NCBI RefSeq assembly: GCF_014230055.1
Contig: NZ_JACHVA010000069.1
Coordinates: 1-47,906 of the forward strand
DNA: 47,906 nucleotides
Direction: 5' to 3'
From: Puniceicoccus vermicola
Lineage (GTDB): Bacteria; Verrucomicrobiota; Verrucomicrobiia; Opitutales; Puniceicoccaceae
Shown: piece by piece, positions 1 through 41,326 of the stretch
Numbering within the stretch: position 1 is the stretch's first letter
Layout: each line of letters begins with the position of its first letter
Position numbers and translations under genes: made by a program
The notes under the pieces: model-generated
Databases searched by the model: none
Seen by the model: the letters and a program-made list of their open reading frames with translations, nothing else
Told to the model about the DNA's origin: nothing

Positions 1-291
1 ACGTTAGTGCGCCAAGCGAAGCGAGGCGCTTCTTGTCCGGTGAAAGTCCGGACGTTTCAAAGTAATAACCAAACAGAAACTACCGAGTGTTGCGCTGATG
101 TCAGCTAAGCCATTAGAAGGATTGCCGCTTTTAGAGGCGGAGCCCGATGCGTTATCCACATGGAAGCGTGTCGGGATGGCGGAACGACATCGACGAAGCG
201 TACACAGGGAAGCATGCAGGCCGCAGGGGAGTCGCAGTCCCCGAAGGCAATTTAGCCCCGTAAAGAGTGCAGATGCGGGTGACGACGGTTT

Positions 292-297
292 TAACGT
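292..297 (+). other. EBS1 of the group II intron
   Basis: TAACGT is the perfect antiparallel complement of the six bases just before the intron (1-6). It sits in a loop closed by GTG..GAC (279-286) and GTC..CAC (306-313), which matches the usual placement of EBS1 in a domain I hairpin. A six-base match could arise by chance in 450 nt, but the loop context and the agreement with the GTGCG 5' end make it convincing. Confidence 0.75.
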
Positions 298-451
298 GCG
301 CGGAAGTCAGCACGGGCAATGCCGCAATGGTAAGGCATTGTTCGGCCCGTCGGGGTTCGAAGCCGTGGCATGCATGCAAAGAAGCGTCCTTGAACTTGGG
401 AGGCCTGTTTGTTTCCTCTGGAAAGAGGTAGGAGGCATCAACTAACCGGAG

Positions 452-6820: not shown

Positions 6821-7235
6821 AAGAAGTAACCGCTCAGCTTCAGCTGCGCGGGGCCTGGGGCTGCGAAAGTCCTTTCTGGCTGCCGTTCCGAAACCGACGC
6901 GATGGGGGCAGCTAAAGCTGCGCCCCTACAGGAAGTAGCCGCTCAGCTTCAGCTGCGCGGAGCCTAGGGTTGCGAAAGTTCTTTCAGACTGCAGCTCCGA
7001 AACTGACGCGATGGGGGCAGCTAAAGCTGCGCCCCTACAAGAAGTAGCCGCTCAGCTTCAGCTGCTCGGAGCCTAGGGTTGCGAAAGTTCTTTCAGACTG
7101 CAGCTCCGAAACTGACGCGATGGGGGCAGCTGAAGCTGCGCCCCTACAGGAAGTAGCCGCTCAGCTTCAGCTGCGCGGAGCTTGGGATTGCGAAAGTTCT
7201 TTCTGGCTGCCGTTCCGAAACCGACGCAAATGGGG
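6821..7235. repeat. 109-bp tandem array of palindromic elements (family A)
   Basis: Four head-to-tail units start near 6821, with GCTCAGCTTC at 6832, 6941, 7050 and 7159, an exact 109-nt spacing. Each unit has a left palindrome (CGCTCAGCTTCAGCTGCGC), a more variable middle of about 60 nt, and a right palindrome (GGGGCAGCTAAAGCTGC followed by GCCCCTAC). In the last unit the right palindrome is replaced by a different one, GGTAGCCAATTCTACC. The array fills the gap between two convergent genes. Short ORFs across it are artefacts of the repeat. Confidence 0.92.
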
Positions 7236-12451: not shown

Positions 12452-12935
12452 GAATCGCACGACTGAAGTCATGCGAGAACGGAGAGGTTGGCGATTGACT
12501 TTAGTCATTCGGGAAAAGCGGTCTTGCCGCTTTTGTTTTGCGGGGAAGCTACGGCGTTGCGGAGAGGTCGGTTCTGGGGTTGTGCGGGAATCGCACGACT
12601 GAAGTCATACGAGAACGGAGAGGTTGCCGATTGGCTTTAGTCATTCGGGAAAAGCGGTCTTGCCGCTTTTATTTTGCGGGGAAGCTACGGCGTTGCGGAG
12701 AGGTCGGTTCTGGGGTTGTGCGGGAATCGCACGACTAAAGTCATGCGAGAACGCTGAGGTTGCCGATTGACTTTAGTCATTCGGGAGAAGCGGTCTTGCC
12801 GCTTTTGTTTTGCGGGGAAGCTACGGCGTTGCGGAGAGGTCGGCTCTGGGGTTGTGCAGGAATCGCACGACTAAAGTCATGCGAGAACGCAGGGGTTGGC
12901 GATTGACTTTAGTCATTCGGAAAAAGCGGCCTTTC
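12452..12935. repeat. 136-bp tandem array of palindromic elements (family B)
   Basis: Units begin with GAATCGCACGACT at 12452, 12588, 12724 and 12860, an exact 136-nt spacing; the last unit is partial. Each unit holds an imperfect palindrome (GCACGACTAAAGTCATGC, with G in place of the middle A in some copies), a second GACTTTAGTC palindrome, and a third hairpin AAAAGCGG / CCGCTTTT. The array lies between the convergent oxidoreductase and channel genes and ends a few bases from the channel's stop. The 120 nt before the array (12329-12451) show no gene. ORFs read through the array are repeat artefacts. Confidence 0.92.
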
Positions 12936-12941
12936 GGCTTT

Positions 12942-14000
12942 CTATGGACTGAGGACGGCGTTGAGCTGGTCCTGCCACTCTTGGGTCTGCGTCAGCTGGA
13001 GAAGGAGAATATCCATTTTCTCCCGGTAGGGCGCCTGCGGGGGAAGAGCGATTCCGTAATTTTCGCGGGTGAACGTTGATTTGAGGATATCGATATGACG
13101 AAGATCGTCTTTGGCGACGTAGTATTCGAGGACAGGCTTATCATAGACCACGGCATCCCATTTGCCTTCTTCGAGTTCACTGAGCAAATCCTCGATGGAA
13201 TTAGAGGTGCGATAGGGAATCTTGAGCATGGAGAGCCAATCCGCGGAGGTGGAGCCTTTTACGGTAGCAGTTTTCACGTCGTTCAGGTCGCGGATGTCCT
13301 CGACTTTGCTGGAGAGCGTATCGCGGGTGAGGCTGGAGGCAAAGCCGGCCGTGAAACCCGAAATGATGATGATGGCCATAAACATCCAGATTAGGCCGAC
13401 GACCCTTCCCAAAAGAGTCTTGGGGGCTTTGTCCCCATATCCAACGGTCGTCATCGTCACCGCGGACCACCAGAGCCCGGCTCCGATCCCTTTACCGGGG
13501 CGTCCTCCAAATTCGTCTGGATTGTGTTTCCTCTCCGCGAGCCAAACGAAGAGCCCAACCACGGCAAGAAGGAGTAAGAGACTGAATACTGCCTGCAGAA
13601 AGCGGAGGGAGAAAATATTGCGCAAGGCCAGGATCCACATCTCGGTGTCGGTGTCACTCGCGGCGATGCCAATGCCGCTTTCAAAAAAGGAATGGGTAAA
13701 ATCAACGAGTTCCTCTCGATCGCTGGTGATGGAGAGCGCCGCAATTCCAGCATCGATCTGATTCTTTTCGAGGCTGTCGAAAATCTCGGTCAGAGACATC
13801 GTCTTGAACTCCGGAGTCCGATCCATCTCGGCAAGAATTTCTTCAATCAGCCAAACCGCGGGGCCACTCCAGTTCCCATTCTCATCCTGAATCGTGAAGG
13901 GTGGCGTTTCCTTGATCCCGATCGTAAAGGTCGATTCATCGGCTGCGCTGGCGAGCAAGGCGGGCATCCAAGAGAGGAGGAATATTGATAGAAATTTCAC
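12942..14000 (-). CDS. GluR0-like glutamate receptor potassium channel
   Basis: A 352-residue protein that fuses a periplasmic-binding-protein-type ligand domain with a K+ pore. A signal peptide (1-20) is followed by lobe S1 (TFTIGIKETPPF ... ALSITSDREELVDFTHSFFESGIGI). R95 sits where ionotropic receptors bind the ligand alpha-carboxylate. Membrane helix M1 is about 132-155. A pore loop carries the potassium filter TTVGYGD (184-190), and M2 is about 196-220. Lobe S2 (about 230-350) completes the clamshell. There is no M4 helix and no amino-terminal domain, as in cyanobacterial GluR0. The start is GTG at 14000 with no Shine-Dalgarno motif. Likely role: an amino-acid-gated K+ channel in the inner membrane. 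The ligand is not known. Confidence 0.92.
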   Translation of the reverse strand: MKFLSIFLLSWMPALLASAADESTFTIGIKETPPFTIQDENGNWSGPAVWLIEEILAEMDRTPEFKTMSLTEIFDSLEKNQIDAGIAALSITSDREELVDFTHSFFESGIGIAASDTDTEMWILALRNIFSLRFLQAVFSLLLLLAVVGLFVWLAERKHNPDEFGGRPGKGIGAGLWWSAVTMTTVGYGDKAPKTLLGRVVGLIWMFMAIIIISGFTAGFASSLTRDTLSSKVEDIRDLNDVKTATVKGSTSADWLSMLKIPYRTSNSIEDLLSELEEGKWDAVVYDKPVLEYYVAKDDLRHIDILKSTFTRENYGIALPPQAPYREKMDILLLQLTQTQEWQDQLNAVLSP

Positions 14001-14074: not shown

Positions 14075-14120
14075 GCAGACCTTCGGATCGCAGAACCGCT
14101 GACCTGAATTCGAGTGAACT

Positions 14121-14342
14121 GTAAGTAGGGGAGTAGCTTTAGCTGCCCCCATCCACGTAGGTTTCGCTCAGGAATCTCAACAGCCTCTCCGCCCCGCAAG
14201 GCCGCGCAGCTAAAGCTGAGCGGATACTACAAGTTGGGGAGTAGCTTTAGCTGCCCCCATCCACGTAGGTTTCGCTCAGGAATCTCAACAGCCTCTCCGC
14301 CCCGCAAGGCCGCGCAGCTAAAGCTGAGCGGCTACTGTAAGT
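14121..14342. repeat. 108-bp tandem pair of family A elements, inverted
   Basis: Two units 108 nt apart (GGGGAGTAGCTTTAGCTG at 14128 and 14236). Read on the minus strand, they match the family A layout: a left palindrome CGCTCAGCTTTAGCTGCGC, a variable middle, and a right palindrome GGGGGCAGCTAAAGCT. The middle differs from the other arrays, while the two end palindromes are conserved. Confidence 0.9.
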
Positions 14343-14375
14343 TTCGGGATCCCCCAAAAAATGATAGTAATATTT

Positions 14376-14628: not shown

Positions 14629-17600
14629 CTACGCTTTCGGGGGCTCGATCGCTTTCGCCGGTTCGTCGTGGTCGTCGTCCCCGTCCTTATGCTTCCGGTG
14701 ACCGATCTTCTCAATCATGTAGAAGGTGGAGGGGATGACGAGAATGGAGATGACTGAGGCCGCGAGCATTCCGCCGATCACGGTGGTTCCAAGGATTCGG
14801 CGAGAGTTCATTCCGGCCCCGAGGGCGAAGTAGAGAGGCATACATCCGAGGATGAAGGCGAAGGAGGTCATGAGAATCGGCCGTAGACGCAGGCGGGCTG
14901 CTTCCAGGGCTGCTTCTCGGAGAGACTTTCCTTCCTCCAGGTATTGGGCTCGACCGTACTCAACAATGAGGATGGCATTCTTGGCCGCGAGTCCGATCAG
15001 CATCACCAAACCGATTTGAGCGTAAACGTTGTTCTGGAAATCCCGCACATCCAAGAAGATGAAGGCTCCCCCGACTGCGATGGGCAAGCTGATCAATACG
15101 CTGAACGGCAGGGACCAGCTCTCGTAAAGGGCCGCGAGAATCAGGAAGACAAAGGTCAGCGACAGAGCGAAAATCGCAGTGGGCGAAACGCCGTCAGCCG
15201 CCTTCTTTTCCTCATAGGACATACCGCTATAGCTGAAGCCCATGGAGGAATCCATCGTCTCTGCAAAAGTTTCCTCGAGAGCTGCCATGGCATCACCGCT
15301 GGAGTATCCGTCAGCGGCAGTGACATTCAACTGCGTAGAACGGTAAATGTCGTAGTGACGGATGTATTCGGGACCGTGCGTCTTTTCAGGCGTGGTAAAG
15401 ACATTGAGCGGAACAGGATCTCCGGCGTTGTTGCGGACGTAGAAGAGGTCTAAGTTGGCGATATCGGTGCGGAATGCCCCTTCGGCTTGGACGTAAACCT
15501 GCCACTGGCGTCCGAATCGATTGAAGTAATTGACGAAGGCTCCCCCCATGAAGGTTTGGAGAGTCTGGTAGACCGAAGAAAGGGGAACTCCTTGTTTGAG
15601 TACCTTGTCCTTATCGACGTCGACGTAGATCTGGGGGATCTTGGTCGAGAAATTGGTAGATGCCGAACCGATTGCAGGGTTGGCTGTCGCTGCTTCGATA
15701 AAGCGTTCTGTCTGCTGCTGCAGAAACTCGGGGCTACGCCCGCCCCGATCTTGGAGAATGAAAGTAACCCCACCGGAGGCTCCAATCCCGGGAATGGCCG
15801 GAGGCGGGAAGGCGAACCCGGTCGCACCGGGGATCGTTTGAATCCGCTCGTTGATCTCCTTGTAGATCGTTTTGAGATTCATGGTTTCCACGTTCTCGCT
15901 GGAGTAGCGATAGGACCATGGCTTCAGCGTGAATGCGATGAAGGAGCTGTAGGTATTTTGGACTCCGGAGAGCAGGTTGAATCCGGCTACGGTGACGGTG
16001 TGTTCGATGCCGGGAATGTCTTTCGTCACCTCATAGACTTGCTGATTCACCTCTGTGGTTCGTTCCAAGGAAGCGGCGGCGGGCAGATTCATTGAGGCGA
16101 AGAGATAACCTTGGTCCTCATCAGGGATAAATCCTGAAGAAAGACGGGATGCGCTGTAGCCCCCAATTCCTCCAACGATCACAATAATCCCGATGGCAAG
16201 AATCGACTTGCGCATGATGCCACCGCAGATGGCGACGTATTTTCCGGTGGCCTTTCCGAAATAGAGATTAAACTTGCCGTAGAACCATCCGAGTGGGCCG
16301 TGAGCTTTCTTCCGGGGGCGGAGAAGCAATGCGGATAGAGCCGGACTCAGCGTGAGAGCGTTAAAGGTCGAGATCAACACCGAGACCGCAATGGTGACCG
16401 CAAATTGTTGATAGAGTCGTCCCGTGATTCCCGGGATGAAAATCGTCGGGACGAACACGGCGACCAAGACCATACTGGTGCCGAAGATCGGTCCGCTCAC
16501 GTCCTTCATCGCTCGCATCGTCGCCTCCTTGGAGCCGAAGCCTTCTTCGATATACCTCTCGACAGCCTCCACGACGACAATGGCATCGTCCACCACCAAC
16601 CCGATGGCCAATACCAATCCGAAAAGGGACAGGGTGTTGATGGAGAACCCGAGGATCGGGAAAAAGATGAAAGTTCCGATGAGAGAGACCGGAACCGCGA
16701 TCAACGGAATAAGGGTGGCACGCCAACCTTGGAGGAAAATAAAGACCACGATAACCACCAGGACCAGGGCCTCGAAAAGCGTATCCTTAATTTCTTCAAT
16801 ACCGGCGGTGACCGCTTCAGTGGTGTCGAGAGCTACCGTGTATTCCATTCCATCCGGGAAGCTCTTCGCTGCCTCCTCCATGAGGCTCCGCGCATCTTCT
16901 GCCGCCTGCAGAGCGTTGGAACCCGGAGTCTGGTAGAGGGCGAGAATCGCGGAAGGTTTGCCATCGTAGACCCCGTTGACGGTATAGGTCTGCGAACCGA
17001 GTTCGATTCGGGCGATGTCCTTGACGCGAACGACGGAGCCGTCGGGATTGGCCCTAACGATGATGTCAGCGAATTGTTCCGGTTCGGTCAGACGGCCTTG
17101 GGCACTGACGGTGTAAGTGAATTCCTGGCCTGCGGGAACAGGGTCCCCCCCGATCTTACCCGCGGGGTTCACGGTGTTCTGGCTCTGGATGGCGTTAATG
17201 ATCTCGCTGACCGTAATGTTCCGGCTGGCGAGAACATTGGGATCCACCCAGATCCGCATAGCGTAATTGCCGGAACCGAACACGGTCACACTGGCAACCC
17301 CGCCGATGCGGGTAAAGGCGTCGTTCAGGTTGATGACCGCGTAATTTGCGAGGAAAAGGCTATCGAGGGAGTCGTCGGGTGAGGTCAATGCGAACATCAC
17401 GAGGGGAGAGGCCAATGACTTCTTGACGACGATCCCTTGGTTGGTGACGGAAGTCGGCACCTGCGACTGGGCTTGGCTGACCCGCATCTGGGTCAAAATC
17501 TGGTCCGTATCGGTGTCGGTCTCGACATCGAATGTCACGGTGAGATTCATCAATCCGTTGTTCGAACTGGTGGAGGTCATGTACTCCATCCCTTCGACCC

Positions 17601-17811
17601 CACTCATCTGCTGCTCAATGGGGAGAGCGGTCGATTCTTCGATGGTGATCGCATCGGCACCCACATAGGTGGCATTGACGGTAATCTGCGGTGGAACGAT
17701 TTCCGGATATTGGGCGATCGGGAGCATCGTCATGGAGACGAGACCCACGATCACAGTCAGGATGGCGAGAACCATCGCGACGATCGGGCGATTGATGAAA
17801 AACTTATACAT
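14629..17811 (-). CDS. RND multidrug efflux permease (HAE1/AcrB-like)
   Basis: A 1060-residue proton-driven inner-membrane transporter that exports hydrophobic compounds through a tripartite channel. The N-terminus MYKFFINRPIVAMVL is typical of HAE1 members, and the length matches AcrB (1049). The proton relay is intact: D408 and D409 in GLVVDDAIVVVE, and K944 in GLAAKNAILIVE. Twelve membrane helices are expected, with two large periplasmic loops. A short charged tail rich in H, K and D ends the protein. It is third in an operon after the outer membrane factor and the adaptor (33 nt gap). No TetR- or MarR-type regulator is adjacent. Confidence 0.96.
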   Translation of the reverse strand: MYKFFINRPIVAMVLAILTVIVGLVSMTMLPIAQYPEIVPPQITVNATYVGADAITIEESTALPIEQQMSGVEGMEYMTSTSSNNGLMNLTVTFDVETDTDTDQILTQMRVSQAQSQVPTSVTNQGIVVKKSLASPLVMFALTSPDDSLDSLFLANYAVINLNDAFTRIGGVASVTVFGSGNYAMRIWVDPNVLASRNITVSEIINAIQSQNTVNPAGKIGGDPVPAGQEFTYTVSAQGRLTEPEQFADIIVRANPDGSVVRVKDIARIELGSQTYTVNGVYDGKPSAILALYQTPGSNALQAAEDARSLMEEAAKSFPDGMEYTVALDTTEAVTAGIEEIKDTLFEALVLVVIVVFIFLQGWRATLIPLIAVPVSLIGTFIFFPILGFSINTLSLFGLVLAIGLVVDDAIVVVEAVERYIEEGFGSKEATMRAMKDVSGPIFGTSMVLVAVFVPTIFIPGITGRLYQQFAVTIAVSVLISTFNALTLSPALSALLLRPRKKAHGPLGWFYGKFNLYFGKATGKYVAICGGIMRKSILAIGIIVIVGGIGGYSASRLSSGFIPDEDQGYLFASMNLPAAASLERTTEVNQQVYEVTKDIPGIEHTVTVAGFNLLSGVQNTYSSFIAFTLKPWSYRYSSENVETMNLKTIYKEINERIQTIPGATGFAFPPPAIPGIGASGGVTFILQDRGGRSPEFLQQQTERFIEAATANPAIGSASTNFSTKIPQIYVDVDKDKVLKQGVPLSSVYQTLQTFMGGAFVNYFNRFGRQWQVYVQAEGAFRTDIANLDLFYVRNNAGDPVPLNVFTTPEKTHGPEYIRHYDIYRSTQLNVTAADGYSSGDAMAALEETFAETMDSSMGFSYSGMSYEEKKAADGVSPTAIFALSLTFVFLILAALYESWSLPFSVLISLPIAVGGAFIFLDVRDFQNNVYAQIGLVMLIGLAAKNAILIVEYGRAQYLEEGKSLREAALEAARLRLRPILMTSFAFILGCMPLYFALGAGMNSRRILGTTVIGGMLAASVISILVIPSTFYMIEKIGHRKHKDGDDDHDEPAKAIEPPKA

Positions 17812-17844
17812 GGCGGACTCGCTGGCGGTAGGTTTCCGTTAGGA

Positions 17845-19122
17845 TCAAGACTGAGTGCCTTGGCTGGAATCCGCGGATGAAGAAGAAGAGTCAGAAGAGG
17901 AGGAGGACCCGGAGGACGAATCGGAACCGCTCGAAGAAGTTGAGCTTTGAGAAGAGCTGGCGGAGGAGTTACTGGAGCTCGAGGAGGAGTCACTGGAGTC
18001 GGAAGACGACGATTTAAAAAGGGTGGTCTTGACCTTCGCGCCTTTCTTCACCTTCTGAATTCCTTCAACGATGACGGTATCGCCCGTTTTGAGGCCCGAG
18101 GTGACGACTACGTTGCTACCGGATGTTTCCCCGAGCTTAACCGGCACCGAGGCGACGGTGTCATCGCTATTAACGGTGTAAACGCTGGACATTCCCTGGG
18201 TTTCGACGATGGCCCGCTGGGGGATCTTGATGATATCCTTAAGGGTATTGATCTTGATCCTGACCATGGCGTATTGGCCCGGGCGGAGAATGCTGTTCGG
18301 GTTGGCAAAGAGAACGTAGACACCAATCGTGCCGGTGCCGGAGTCGATCTGACGGTTAATGAACTGGAAACGTCCCTTGTGTTTGTAAATGGATCCATCC
18401 GCCATCACCAGTTCAATGTCCTCTGGACGCTCGGAGAGGGGAATCTTGACCAGTTCTTGCAGACGCTCGGCGCGGCTCATGTAAGCGCGTTCAGGAATGT
18501 AGAAAACCGCTTGAATGGGATCGAGGTTGGACATCGTCGCCAAGACTTGAGTGGGGCCAACCAGATCCCCGATATCGGTCGAGGCTTTTCCGACGATCCC
18601 TGCGATAGGAGCGTAAATTTTGCAGTAGCTGAGATTCAGCTTTGCCTGATTCAAAGCCGCCTTGGAAGCGGCGACCTGAGCTTTGACCGCGTCCCGTTCC
18701 TGGACTGCGTTATCAAGCTGCTTCTGACTGATGGCGTCGGCCTTGATCAGCTCCTGGTCGCGTTGGACCGTAAGCTCGGCTTTCACCAAATTGGCCTCTT
18801 GGACCTCGACGTTCGCCTTTGCTTGCTGGACATCGATTTCGTAAGTCGAAGGATCGATGGTGAAGAGGAGATCGTCCTTCTTTACGAGAGCACCGTCCTC
18901 GTACTCCTGAGTGAGAAGGTAGCCCTGGATCTTCGGTTTGATTTTCGTGTTAACGGGACCCTGCAGAGTTGCCACGATTTCGCGATAGACGGGAAGGTCG
19001 GTCTCGCTCGCGGAGATAACCTCAACGGTTGGCGGAGTGCTGGCTTGCTGCGGCTTCTTCTCTTTGCACCCCGGCAAAAGGGCGAGTGAGAAAAGAAAGA
19101 GTGGAAGGATGCGAAGGTTCAT
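17845..19122 (-). CDS. RND periplasmic adaptor (membrane fusion protein)
   Basis: A 425-residue lipoprotein that links the permease to the outer membrane channel. The signal ends at lipobox LPGC (Cys19). The barrel-sandwich/lipoyl segment (VNTKIKPKIQGYLL) is followed by a coiled-coil hairpin (about 85-165, rich in A, K, Q and E) and the beta-barrel region (GDLVGPTQVLATMSNLDPI). The last 55 residues (371-425) are almost pure Ser with scattered Asp, Gly and Gln, a tail not found in classical AcrA. It starts with ATG overlapping the upstream stop by four bases (ATGA), so translation is probably coupled. Confidence 0.94.
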   Translation of the reverse strand: MNLRILPLFLFSLALLPGCKEKKPQQASTPPTVEVISASETDLPVYREIVATLQGPVNTKIKPKIQGYLLTQEYEDGALVKKDDLLFTIDPSTYEIDVQQAKANVEVQEANLVKAELTVQRDQELIKADAISQKQLDNAVQERDAVKAQVAASKAALNQAKLNLSYCKIYAPIAGIVGKASTDIGDLVGPTQVLATMSNLDPIQAVFYIPERAYMSRAERLQELVKIPLSERPEDIELVMADGSIYKHKGRFQFINRQIDSGTGTIGVYVLFANPNSILRPGQYAMVRIKINTLKDIIKIPQRAIVETQGMSSVYTVNSDDTVASVPVKLGETSGSNVVVTSGLKTGDTVIVEGIQKVKKGAKVKTTLFKSSSSDSSDSSSSSSNSSASSSQSSTSSSGSDSSSGSSSSSDSSSSSADSSQGTQS

Positions 19123-20606
19123 TTTTGCTTCGAGGATTCGTTCTTCTGTGAAGGAAGGGGAGGCGGTGCCGGTGAGTCGTTGATTGGGCCGGCTTCGAAA
19201 TTGCCTCCCAACGCAAGGTAAAGATCGACGCGGTTCGTGAGAATGGAACCGCGGGAGGTGATGAGGTTCGACTGGGATTGGAGCGATTGACGTTGGACCA
19301 CCAAGTAACTGGTCATGTCAGTTTCCCCTTCCTTGTATCGGATTTCAGCAACCTTGGCAGCCTTTTGGAGATTGTCAGATGCGATCCCCAGCTGCTTGAC
19401 CTGCTCTTCCAGCGACGATTCAAGCGAAAGGGTGTCCTCGACTTCCTGAAAAGCGTCGAGAGCTGTCTGCTTATATTGGGCCACTGCCACCATTTGTTGC
19501 GCTTCGGCTTGCAGGAACTGGTTCTTGCGGAGTCCGGCGTCAAAGAGCGGCTGGAAGAGGTTGATCCCCAAGTTGGTCAGCATGGAGGAGGCATCGAAAA
19601 GATCGCCAAAATTCTCAGCGCTCGATTGATAGCTGGCGGTGAGCGAGAACTGGGGGAGTCGCGCCGCGGCGGCGGATTTGGTGAAGTAGAAGGCGGAGGA
19701 TACGTTGCGGTCAGCAGCGATCAGGTCCGGGCGGCGTTGGAGTAGGCTCGAGGGAAGCCCGGCCGGAACCGGGGGGAGATCGATGGAGAGAGAATCCGCA
19801 AGCGAAAGATCGGCGGAGGGATAGCGGCCGAGGAGGATTTCCAGGCTGCGAATCGAAGACCGGGTTGAGTAGAGGGCCTGTAGGGCGGATTGACGGGCAT
19901 TGGCGACATCGGCTTGGGCGGAGTAGACGTCCTGCGCCGAAACCTCCCCCGCATTGAAGCGGGCTGTGGCAATCCGGAGAGCTTCTTCAAAATTCGAGAC
20001 AAACTGATTCGCCAGCTCATACTGAAGCTTGTTGGTCACGGCTTGGAACCAACCCTTGGTGACCTGCGCAGCGAGGCTCTGGCGGGCGAAAGCATAGTCT
20101 GCCGCAGTCGCCGATGCGGCGAAGGCAGCGCTTTTGGACGCATCGGAAACGCGCCGCCAAACATCGAGTTCCCAGCTCAGGGCAAGTCCGACGCCTAGAG
20201 TCGTCTGATTTTTCTCATACTGGAGGAGTTCATCCTGCTGAGTGAGTTCGAAACGGTGGGTCTGCTGCGCGCCAGCCTGAAGGTCGAGCTCAGGGAAGAG
20301 GGCCGCGTTGGCCTGGCGGGCTTCTGCGATAGCGGCGGAAAGGGAGGCTGCGGTTGCGGCAAGGTTGGGGTTGGCTTCCTGAGCTTCATTGACCAAGTCG
20401 ATCAGGACCGGATCGTTGAAAGCGGAAAGCCAATCGTCGGGGACTTCGCCGGTATCTTTGCTCGAATCCCAGCTTTCGGTCGGAGCTAGCTCGCCCATCT
20501 CCTTCTGAGGGTCGGGCTGAGGGATCGAGCAACCTACTGCAATGAGCAGGAAAATTATTCCTCCGAGTAAGGTCAGAGGTGTACGAAAAGCAGTATCGGA
20601 ACGCAT
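19119..20606 (-). CDS. Outer membrane efflux protein, NodT/TolC family
   Basis: A 495-residue outer membrane channel lipoprotein. Lipobox AVGC puts the modified Cys at residue 26. The two TolC-type repeats are visible as long amphipathic helices rich in A, Q, E and L (ANPNLAATAASLSAAIAEARQ near 95; the related segment in the C-terminal half ends in VAEIRYKEGETDMTSYLVVQRQ). RPDLIAADRNV is the typical midpoint motif of the NodT group. It is the first gene of the efflux operon, whereas many RND operons put this gene last. The 113 nt upstream is shared with the divergent gene at 20720. Confidence 0.94.
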   Translation of the reverse strand: MRSDTAFRTPLTLLGGIIFLLIAVGCSIPQPDPQKEMGELAPTESWDSSKDTGEVPDDWLSAFNDPVLIDLVNEAQEANPNLAATAASLSAAIAEARQANAALFPELDLQAGAQQTHRFELTQQDELLQYEKNQTTLGVGLALSWELDVWRRVSDASKSAAFAASATAADYAFARQSLAAQVTKGWFQAVTNKLQYELANQFVSNFEEALRIATARFNAGEVSAQDVYSAQADVANARQSALQALYSTRSSIRSLEILLGRYPSADLSLADSLSIDLPPVPAGLPSSLLQRRPDLIAADRNVSSAFYFTKSAAAARLPQFSLTASYQSSAENFGDLFDASSMLTNLGINLFQPLFDAGLRKNQFLQAEAQQMVAVAQYKQTALDAFQEVEDTLSLESSLEEQVKQLGIASDNLQKAAKVAEIRYKEGETDMTSYLVVQRQSLQSQSNLITSRGSILTNRVDLYLALGGNFEAGPINDSPAPPPLPSQKNESSKQK

Positions 20607-20719: not shown

Positions 20720-23293
20720 ATGATCCGAAACCGTTGTCTGAGCTACGTTTCATTGCTTTTCCCCGATCTTCTCCTTTTCTGGAGTCCAGTGTTATCGTCA
20801 CGGAAAGGAAAAAGCCTAAGAATCCTCGGAGGAGTCTGCCTCTTGGTGATTTCAGCAGGGGTCTCGGGACTCGGGGCGGGGCCGCATCGGTTCCCGGCGA
20901 AACAGGAATTTCCCGGTTTTTTCTCCATCTTCTCTCCGAAAAGCCCTGAAACGGTAATTCTTCTGCCCCTTGTCGCTTCTGAACGACTGGAGGAAGCCGT
21001 CGAAGAATTTCAGGATCGGGTCTATGAAATGGGAGGTCCTTGGATCCGATCGACTCGGGATGATCGCGATTTGACCGGCTTTTCTGTGATTCAATTCAGG
21101 CGGAGTGTGGACCGAGCCCCAATGACTTCACCCAACGGCGAAGAGGGTAGCTTTCGTATCAAGGTCGGGAGAAAGAATCTCACGATCGAAGCCTTGGACG
21201 ACATTGGATGGGAATTCGGTCTCTACACTCTCTTGGATGAATTCGGGGGAGTGCGCTGGTATTGGCCGGGAGAGGAGGGGACCTATACGCCGAAACGGGA
21301 TCGATGGAAGGTTCCTTACGGAAGCTATGATTATGCGCCGGCATACGTTTCCCGGCAGTTGACGGGGCTTCATAGCCGTGAGGAGAAGCTTTGGGGCCGA
21401 CACAACCGACTTCACGCCACCTTTTCGTTTATGCACAATCTTTGGCGAATCTTTGACCGGGAGTTCTTTCTGGAGCATCCCGAAGCCCTCGCCGTCGATT
21501 GGGATCCGGCTGATCCACCTCCGCCGGGAGACCGTTTCTGGCGAACTCAACCCGATCTAAGCTCCCCCGTCGTTATCGAGGCTGCGGCGGAAGCTGCCCG
21601 GGAAGCATTTCGTGAGGATCCTTCGCTGGTTTCCTTTGCCCTCGGTACTAACGATAATACCGATTTTGGCGATAGCCCAGGCATCCGGGAATGGACGCGT
21701 CCGATGAGCTATTTCCGCGATCTGCCTGATTATTCCGATTTGGTTTTCCAGTTTATGAACCGGGTTGCGGATCAGGTCTCGCCGGAATTTCCCGACCGTT
21801 ATCTTGGATGCCTCGCCTACATGTGGAGTGAGAATGTCCCCAGTTTCCCGGTGAGATCGACCGTATTGCCCTATCTTACGGCCGACCGCAGCCATGGATA
21901 CGATGTGGATTTTACCGAAGAGGATCGGGAACTCGTTCAAAAGTGGACCGAGGCCGGCCCGCGAATCATTGGAGTCTACGACTATATTCATGGAGCCCCT
22001 CATCCCTTCCCCAGAAGGGCCAATCTCCTCATCGGGCAACGGATTCGCGATATGCACGAAGCTGGAGTGAAGGCCTATCGGGGTGAAATCTCTCCCATTT
22101 GGCCTTTTCATGGCGAGGTCCCGTGGATGGTGGCGCGCATGCTTTGGAACCCGGATTTGAAGCCCGGGGAACTCGAGCGGGAATTTTGGACCGATTTCTT
22201 CGGACCGGCCGCAGAAACCATGGGGGCCTTTTACGATCGTGCCCGCGATGCTTGGATGACCCAGGAAGGCTCGGCGGTCTGGATCAAATATTTCTATGAT
22301 GAGGGTGGCGTTGACGTGTTCACGGATGAGGACCTCGAGGAGATGACCGGTCTTCTGGAAACGGCCTTGGCTGAGGTGGGCGATGGATTGTACCGGGACA
22401 GGGTTCAATCGGTTTGGGATACGTGGCAACTCACGCTGGCCGCTGCCCAGTTTCAGAACGCTCGCCGTCAGCTCGTCCTCACTCAGGAACTCTCTGGTGC
22501 GATACCTTTTTATGAAATGCTGATGGCACGGAAATGGTGGGATGTGATTTCGACCAAGGTTTCGCGGCATCCCTGGTCCCGTCAGGCATCCCGTAGCCGA
22601 CTGACTTTTTCGGATCCCAGCTATCATGCCGCTCGCAATTTGCTCGTGGGAGCTGAGCCCGAAAACCGAAAGATCCTCGCCGATCAAATCGAGATGGAGG
22701 CCCATCGATTGAATGACGGCCTTGCCTTTTCCATGTTTCATTTCGCGGAGTTGGCCACGGACAGCGAAAAGAAAGAGATCATCCTGCAAGGACCGATTCG
22801 CGAATCGGCCGGGGAGATCCGAATCACTGGGCCGGAGCCTTGGGAGCGGGCGCTGGATCCTCCGTGGCAGTTGAAGCTCAGCCCTTCCGGGCGGGTATCG
22901 ATTGACTATGTCTCTACCGGTGATGCGGTGTCCCTTCGGATTGAGGATGCCTACGCGGCCGGGCTCAAATTTGAGTTCCCTTTAATCGCGCCAAGGGTCG
23001 ATAACCTTACTGAATTCTACGAAGCGGAAATCAATTTATCCGCGCAGATATCGTTGGGAAACCGGACTGAAGTAAAGTTCCAGTGGTTGGATGACGAGGG
23101 AAAATCCCTGGGATCGACGCGTGCGATTCGCCTCCCGACCCATGGCAATCCCTATCCGTTACGTCTCAGTGTTCTCGGGGTTCCCGCAAAGGGAGCGGTG
23201 CGAGGGGTGCTAGTCATTTCGACAGTTCGCCAGGAGGAGGGAGATTGGCTTTCCTTGTCCTCGATCGAAATCGTCCGATTCCCTTTGCGGTAG
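20720..23293 (+). CDS. DUF4838 domain secreted protein
   Basis: An 857-residue exported protein. The middle contains IGWEFGLYTLLDEFGGVRWYWPGEEG, the segment typical of DUF4838 proteins and reminiscent of the N-terminal domain of alpha-glucuronidases and family 20 hexosaminidases. The DUF4838 body follows (about 210-560, with GRHNRLH, SLVSFALGTND and GVYDYIHG). The C-terminal 180 residues look like a beta-sandwich. A hydrophobic stretch SLRILGGVCLLVISAGVSG (about 33-51) is a signal peptide. A GTG at 20789, preceded by GGAG, would place it at the N-terminus and may be the true start. Relatives occur in polysaccharide-degrading bacteria; the activity is unproven. Confidence 0.8.
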   Translation: MIRNRCLSYVSLLFPDLLLFWSPVLSSRKGKSLRILGGVCLLVISAGVSGLGAGPHRFPAKQEFPGFFSIFSPKSPETVILLPLVASERLEEAVEEFQDRVYEMGGPWIRSTRDDRDLTGFSVIQFRRSVDRAPMTSPNGEEGSFRIKVGRKNLTIEALDDIGWEFGLYTLLDEFGGVRWYWPGEEGTYTPKRDRWKVPYGSYDYAPAYVSRQLTGLHSREEKLWGRHNRLHATFSFMHNLWRIFDREFFLEHPEALAVDWDPADPPPPGDRFWRTQPDLSSPVVIEAAAEAAREAFREDPSLVSFALGTNDNTDFGDSPGIREWTRPMSYFRDLPDYSDLVFQFMNRVADQVSPEFPDRYLGCLAYMWSENVPSFPVRSTVLPYLTADRSHGYDVDFTEEDRELVQKWTEAGPRIIGVYDYIHGAPHPFPRRANLLIGQRIRDMHEAGVKAYRGEISPIWPFHGEVPWMVARMLWNPDLKPGELEREFWTDFFGPAAETMGAFYDRARDAWMTQEGSAVWIKYFYDEGGVDVFTDEDLEEMTGLLETALAEVGDGLYRDRVQSVWDTWQLTLAAAQFQNARRQLVLTQELSGAIPFYEMLMARKWWDVISTKVSRHPWSRQASRSRLTFSDPSYHAARNLLVGAEPENRKILADQIEMEAHRLNDGLAFSMFHFAELATDSEKKEIILQGPIRESAGEIRITGPEPWERALDPPWQLKLSPSGRVSIDYVSTGDAVSLRIEDAYAAGLKFEFPLIAPRVDNLTEFYEAEINLSAQISLGNRTEVKFQWLDDEGKSLGSTRAIRLPTHGNPYPLRLSVLGVPAKGAVRGVLVISTVRQEEGDWLSLSSIEIVRFPLR

Positions 23294-40965: not shown

Positions 40966-41326
40966 CGGACGACTAAAGTCATCCGAGAACGGGAGAGCGC
41001 CTACAAGTAGCCGCTCAGCTTTAGCTGCGCGGTCCTGTGGCCGCGGAAGGTCTCTCCAGCAGGATCCGTCCGAGGAATACGCAATGGGGGCAGCTGAAGC
41101 TGCTCCCCTACGGGTAGCCGCTCAGCTTTAGCTGCGCGGTCCTGCGGTTGCGGAAGGTCTTCCCAGCAGGATCCGTCCGAGGAATACGCAATGGGGGCAG
41201 CTGAAGCTGCTCCCCTACGAGTAGCCGCTCAGCTTTAGCTGCGCGGTCCTGCGATCGCGGAAGGTCTCTCCAGCAGGATCCGTCCGAAGAAATCGCATTG
41301 GGGGCAGCTAAAGCTGCGCCCCTACT
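40966..41326. repeat. Family B copy followed by a 107-bp family A tandem array
   Basis: A single family B palindrome (GACGACTAAAGTCATCC, about 40968) is followed directly by three family A units. Their CCGCTCAGCTTTAGCTGCGC starts are at 41011, 41118 and 41225, exactly 107 nt apart. Each ends with ATGGGGGCAGCTGAAGCTGC and a CCCCTAC run. Middles are nearly identical between units (CAGCAGGATCCGTCCGA). The array ends about 80 nt past the stop of the minus-strand MFS gene. Confidence 0.92.

Follow-up and report, generated by a model that had tools for sequence, protein, structure and literature searches.

The window, i.e. the whole 47,906-nucleotide stretch of Puniceicoccus vermicola DNA that was analysed, encodes a protein that is most probably a K+-selective channel, tetrameric and gated by an amino acid. 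With a probability of roughly 0.88, we regard this protein as a Group 1 prokaryotic ionotropic glutamate receptor (iGluR) of the GluR0 type, in which four subunits would form an inner-membrane K+ pore gated by an alpha-amino acid. Its identity as a GluR0-type K+ channel had been proposed from the DNA alone (the sequence-only reading), and domain matches, layout, filter, anchor residues and predicted fold all agree with that proposal. The protein is a canonical member of a known family; such genes are common in bacteria, and Verrucomicrobiota were already represented. The window corresponds to contig C69 in a 5.2 Mb assembly of 143 contigs (96% complete), in which a 16S rRNA gene was not found. 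The assembly carries one full copy of the channel gene and three other matches, labelled by eye as a voltage-sensor-like channel pore (L002), a TrkA-N-like channel pore (L003) and a binding protein (L004).

Table 1. Coordinates of the channel gene, its predicted segments and the neighbouring efflux operon in the window
Feature	Position	Strand	Basis
GluR0-type channel gene, 352 aa	12942..14000	minus	GTG start at 14000, stop 12942-12944; ORF, Pfam, 71% identical congeneric gene
Predicted signal peptide, residues 1-21	13938..14000	minus	hydrophobic N-terminus after MKF; pLDDT 55-58
S1 lobe, residues 22-116, R95 codon 13716-13718	13653..13937	minus	SBP_bac_3 match; R95 invariant in 60-row alignment A2
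M1 helix, residues 132-156	13533..13607	minus	helix in model 132-156; hydrophobic stretch 123-159
Pore helix and selectivity filter MTTVGYGD, residues 170-190	13431..13493	minus	model helix 168-183; A2 conservation
M2 inner helix, residues 196-228, contains GFTAGFASS	13317..13415	minus	model helix; GluN2B alignment
S2 lobe, residues 241-352, S250-T251 and D287 (codon 13140-13142)	12945..13280	minus	fold match 1ii5 (model 20..351); D287 invariant in A2
RND efflux operon: OEP 19119-20606, membrane-fusion protein 17845-19122, AcrB-type pump 14629-17811	14629..20606	minus	Pfam

Domain architecture and predicted fold

The translated open reading frame exceeds the Pfam cut-offs for SBP_bac_3 (E 1.4e-19), Lig_chan (E 1.1e-15), Ion_trans_2 (E 3.6e-13), Ion_trans and Lig_chan-Glu_bd, the last of these narrowly (31.9 bits against a cut-off of 30). 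The SBP_bac_3 match covers residues 26-276 and thereby spans the pore. In a phmmer search of the PDB, the best match was 2pyy, the ligand core of a GluR0-type protein from Nostoc (E 2.3e-23), followed by GluN2, GluD2 and GLR3.4 chains, i.e. NMDA, delta and plant receptors, among the 60 matches listed of 512. Given these E-values, the PDB match and a full-length gene of 71% identity in the same genus, the predicted identity as a receptor-type channel is not due to chance.

Pfam, hydropathy and the structural model place the S1 and S2 lobes on either side of M1-P-M2, which is the arrangement of Group 1 prokaryotic iGluRs. Hydrophobic stretches were found only at residues 1-21, 123-159 and 192-226, and M4 is absent since none lies beyond residue 226. 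The complete layout given by the sequence-only reading (S1 with R95, M1, the TTVGYGD filter, M2 and S2, without M4) was thus recovered from the ORF, Pfam, hydropathy and the model. The K+ selectivity filter TTVGYGD occupies residues 184-190, within MTTVGYGD at 183-190. In A2, an alignment of 60 chosen homologues, mostly the closest ones, R95, D287 and T185-D190 are invariant and M183 and T184 nearly so. The GFTAGFASS segment of M2 aligns with SYTANLAAF, described as the gate motif of eukaryotic iGluRs (PMC6385376, PMC12226733), and retains T-A-x-x-A in the GluN2B alignment from the PDB sequence search. The loops flanking the pore are slightly net positive (4 K/R vs 3 D/E between M1 and P, 3 K/R vs 0 D/E between P and M2), as expected of the cytoplasmic side; hydropathy and loop charge are the two grounds on which the signal peptide and outside lobes are predicted.

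The AlphaFold2 model of a single chain, computed with 60 aligned homologues as input, reached a mean pLDDT of 90.0 and a pTM of 0.73, with a poorly modelled M2-S2 linker (pLDDT <50 at 227-229). Foldseek returned a mix of AMPA, NMDA, kainate and delta receptor chains among the 50 matches listed (best E 6.1e-21, TM by query 0.48-0.70); 362-432 columns were aligned, and therefore the ligand-binding domain and the pore were covered together. The ligand domain of the model has the clamshell fold, which is common to amino-acid binding proteins too. In VIA-align, the GluR0 core with L-glutamate (1ii5) ranked first (Z 28.9, rmsd 1.9 Å, 218 residues) and 2pyy third (Z 28.4, rmsd 1.6). A clamshell modelled as unable to bind amino acids had been named beforehand as a ground for abandoning the assignment; the predicted one superposes on glutamate-bound GluR0 cores at 1.6-1.9 Å. 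Engineered glutamine-binding proteins at ranks 2 and 4 (Z 28.5 and 28.3) tie with the GluR0 cores, and because of this tie the lobe fold alone does not separate a receptor from a binding protein.

The tie bears on the alternative that the protein is the binding protein of an amino-acid ABC transporter that acquired a membrane segment and serves uptake rather than ion flow. The best NCBIfam names are indeed those of ABC binding proteins (TIGR01096, E 1.2e-19, and GlnH), the S1 signature is present in binding proteins as well, and the four homologues on plasmids carry the annotation 'transporter substrate-binding domain-containing protein'. However, all 13 NCBIfam matches fall far under their cut-offs (best 70.8 vs 256 bits), and no ABC permease or ATPase is found among the 11 typed neighbour proteins (36 ORFs picked in the window). 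Binding proteins are soluble and uninterrupted, whereas here a full K+ pore with a conserved filter interrupts S1-S2. It is this inserted pore, not the lobe fold, that separates the channel protein from binding proteins, and we consider a role in uptake highly improbable. The binding protein L004 of the same genome adjoins a permease-like ORF (label by eye).

Comparison with characterised receptors

Synechocystis GluR0 (slr1257), whose ligand core heads the fold comparison, shares the S1-M1-P-M2-S2 order, the K+ filter, the S1 Arg and the S2 Asp, and likewise has neither M4 nor an N-terminal domain. It belongs to another phylum, its S1 has two extra residues past the Arg, and identity is low (14 of 49 residues aligned in S1, 14 of 55 in S2). 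The Nostoc punctiforme core 2pyy is 31% identical over 211 aligned residues; this PDB chain is the ligand core alone, so the comparison covers the core and not the pore. Eukaryotic iGluRs (GluN2, GluA, GluD, GLR) have in common with the window protein the S1/S2 clamshell, the M1-P-M2 pore and the T-A-x-x-A of the gate, but the window protein lacks their M4, N-terminal domain and C-terminal tail and has a K+ filter. A K+ filter has also been reported for a eukaryotic receptor, rotifer AvGluR1 (PMC12332018).

The S1 segment had been described as very close to the eukaryotic consensus, a view that the counts do not bear out. They lie near the homologue medians: 11 of 25 residues are identical to GluN2B (median 10 among 121 homologues, rank 14), 10 of 25 to GluN2C (median 10) and 12 of 25 to the Nostoc GluR0-type protein (median 12). 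Similarity to L004 is lower than usual, with 5 of 25 (median 10, rank 119 of 121). The Lig_chan score of the window protein, 59.9 bits, is only sixth among 25 matches in the phylum sample (28.4-69.4), so that its closeness to eukaryotic receptors is not special.

Proposed mechanism and ligand

The orientation, tetramer, ligand, gating, selectivity and physiological role suggested here follow from homology with GluR0. Four subunits would build one K+ pore in the inner membrane, inverted with respect to ordinary K+ channels and with S1 and S2 both in the periplasm. Between the lobes an alpha-amino acid (perhaps L-glutamate) would be held, R95 taking its carboxylate and D287 its amino group. Closure of the clamshell may then pull on the S2-M2 linker and open the M2 gate, whereupon K+ would flow through TTVGYGD. 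The likely use would be to alter K+ flux or membrane potential quickly upon external amino acid or salt, in line with what has been reported for Synechocystis GluR0 under KCl upshock.

According to Ger et al. 2010 (PMC2950845), Group 1 receptors hold the amino acid with an Arg of S1 and an Asp of S2. R95, inside ALSITSDREELVDF, and D287, inside VVYDKP, are the corresponding residues here and do not vary across the A2 alignment. Anchors of this type are common to amino-acid binding proteins, and together with the fold tie to glutamine-binding proteins this means that the bound amino acid cannot be named. For Synechocystis GluR0 it has been reported that K+-uptake-deficient E. coli regains growth and that PhoA fusions place the termini outside, part of the orientation data being statistically non-significant in the source (PMC13099474).

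The same source reports that Synechocystis GluR0 slows shrinkage after KCl upshock also without added glutamate (PMC13099474), which would fit a GluR0-type channel that has a non-amino-acid ligand or is gated mainly by ions or voltage, with the lobes as a modulator. Relatives elsewhere in the class retain the filter without both anchors (35 of the 42 K+-filter proteins outside the order, 1 uncalled), and hence a channel can outlive amino-acid binding. The window protein, however, retains R95, S250-T251 and D287, and R95 and D287 are kept in all 14 other sampled proteins of the order. We therefore think such gating unlikely for the window protein and favour gating by an alpha-amino acid.

Genomic neighbourhood

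The RND efflux operon ends 628 bases ahead of the channel start on the same strand. The same gene order occurs in genome G002, with a gap of 161 bases to the channel GTG. A channel coupled to this operon and sensing its exported substrate could account for the position directly downstream in both genomes, but G001 carries the operon without the channel, 108-base repeats occupy the gap in the window, and a simple scan for promoters and terminators gave nothing beyond chance. In addition, a comparison with 15 other loci gave no neighbour in common with the window at E<=1e-10; it is not exhaustive, as it recovered the channel in 14 of these loci but missed it in L015. Coupling to efflux is thus very unlikely, and we read the proximity of operon and channel as accidental or as a matter of genus-level history.

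Tandem arrays built from units of 107-109 or 136 bases occupy intergenic sequence at 12452-12941, 14118-14343, 6823-7235 and 41000-41325, and two of them flank the channel gene. Across the genome, 77 matches to the 108-base unit were found, and most of the full-length matches are 70-80% identical to it. An 857-aa DUF4838 protein (20720-23293) is encoded divergently from the RND operon; its relatives adjoin the RND operon in G001 and G002 (51-55%) and an OEP gene in G003 (42%). At the contig end, a match to group II intron D1-D4-6 (43-365) is followed by a reverse transcriptase ORF (452-1900).

Distribution and phylogeny

Of the other two genomes in the genus, one has the channel gene (71% identity, full-length, GTG at the aligned start). 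It is missing from the genus mate G001, so the function is dispensable. At E<=1e-10, nine of 52 relative genomes (own included) matched, eight with a full-length protein and G012 with the pore only. The filter and both anchors are kept in all 15 sampled order proteins, window included; the loss of pore residues in close relatives, which the sequence-only reading would have counted against itself, was accordingly not seen in this sample. Two weak Lig_chan matches in the order, L148 (G160) and L151 (G194), are under the cut-off, in frames of 278-283 aa.

Cerasicoccus arenae and C. frondis (L064, L086), in the same order, have the full layout, the K+ filter and the anchors, but are only 38-39% identical to the window protein, and for C. 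arenae (L157) the neighbour comparison found no gene in common with the window. G308 also shares the order, and its locus L109 is contained whole in L064. NCBI places C. arenae in Verrucomicrobiota, Opitutia, Puniceicoccales, and the order limits of the two classifications may differ.

Homologues at E<=1e-25 were present in 75 of 384 genomes of the class, own included. Across the phylum, Lig_chan matched at E<=1e-5 in 25 of 288 genomes and above cut-off in 20 of 288, with 0 of 14 controls. At least 578 places in the genome contigs database encode a relative, in a scan that favours K+-filter members because its patterns contained the filter or pore helix. The best 80 of these at least 578 relatives all have the filter, R95 and D/E287, and they cover 12 named phyla (3 rows without placement), two Cerasicoccus species included. 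The gene had been expected to widen the lineage range of such channels; with database relatives in at least 12 phyla, Verrucomicrobiota among them, and in 75 class genomes, it does not notably do so.

Ger et al. 2010 listed 12 Group 1 (K+-filter) proteins (PMC2950845). Judged by title and abstract start, none of the papers listed in a search of mostly non-subscription literature deals with such channels in Verrucomicrobia, which is not a claim of absence from print. Some of the 12 listed accessions are presumably from Chlorobi and Pseudoalteromonas.

Of 152 loci, 135 gave a phmmer match at E<=1e-15 and 17 none; 121 rows, window included, were counted after dropping the window's own loci and identical cores. 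The general tree held 97 of these 121 rows, the other 24 being near relatives of kept rows or odd-pore rows. In it, the window protein and L005 sit on a long stem (1.24), with a position not settled within a fork of 28 rows (support 88) from Verrucomicrobiota, order members, Chlorobiota and Pseudomonadota. A tree of the class alone, with 80 of 88 rows (eight short or very divergent rows left out), places the window protein in a fork of 10 order rows (support 89), and a wider 16-row fork (support 80) includes one non-order protein, L105. An origin by transfer was considered and rejected: neither tree shows transfer, and the GC content of the gene (0.536), near that of the window (0.547), gives no sign of recent arrival.

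Four plasmid records carry a homologue at 25-36% identity. Six phage records match the pore or S1 only, and none covers 80%. In the viral collection, the single-protein query gave 28 pattern matches, none confirmed, and a query with alignment A1 gave 12 confirmed loci (L093-L104). L093-L097 match most of the query at 28-31% identity and the other seven the pore region only. The former are GluR0-like proteins on five putatively viral contigs; L093 and L097 score alike, and L094 has the filter TTIGYGD and neither anchor.

Anchors and filter across the class

If the K+ filter is defined as G-Y/F-G-D, it is absent from 31 of the 88 class proteins, all of them farther off than the sampled order proteins. 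Both anchors are present in 26 of these 31 (not in 4, 1 uncalled), whereas only six of the 42 K+-filter proteins outside the order have R95 and D/E287. Class proteins outside the order thus tend to retain one of the two, the K+ filter or the anchors. The pattern clusters on the tree, and a trade-off as a statistical law is unproven: two independent pairs on starred branches (three on all) differ in the filter, too few independent filter changes for a sign test.

In family f35 (L117, L119, L121, L123, L126, L127, L168, L171, L173 and L176-L178), all 12 proteins have TTIGYGD, while residue 95 is L, Q or Y and residue 287 is R (7) or E (5). To judge from these residues, they are probably orphan receptor channels that do not sense alpha-amino acids.

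Ten class genomes carry two or three homologues. Eight of them (G055, G121, G208, G237, G264, G323, G327, G385) have one paralogue with the filter but not both anchors and one with the anchors but not the filter; G067 departs from this split and G241 is uncalled. For six of these eight genomes, R95 persists in the filter paralogue and D287 alone is missing. The pairs L167/L186 (G208), L172/L182 (G237), L169/L179 (G327), L191/L196 (G121), L195/L193 (G264) and L180/L209 (G323) each consist of one protein that has the K+ filter but has lost D287 and one that has both anchors but a non-K+ filter (e.g. LLVGGADN). A division of labour in heteromers is possible for such pairs. In the window protein one might see the complete form, with both tasks in one gene, of a channel radiation in its class whose sister families split filter and anchoring between paralogues; this is a tentative idea that we consider unlikely.

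Implications

Should this idea be true and the pairs co-assemble, bacteria would have hetero-tetrameric receptors whose subunits are specialised, much like NMDA receptors, and the undivided state might be what the window's order shows. The window gene itself adds one more well-preserved and probably functional member in Verrucomicrobiota. Our surveys show that the distribution of such channels reaches far beyond a few cyanobacteria. Across the class, natural variants separate amino-acid anchoring from K+ selectivity, and these variants may help in studying how evolution joined receptor domains to K+ pores.
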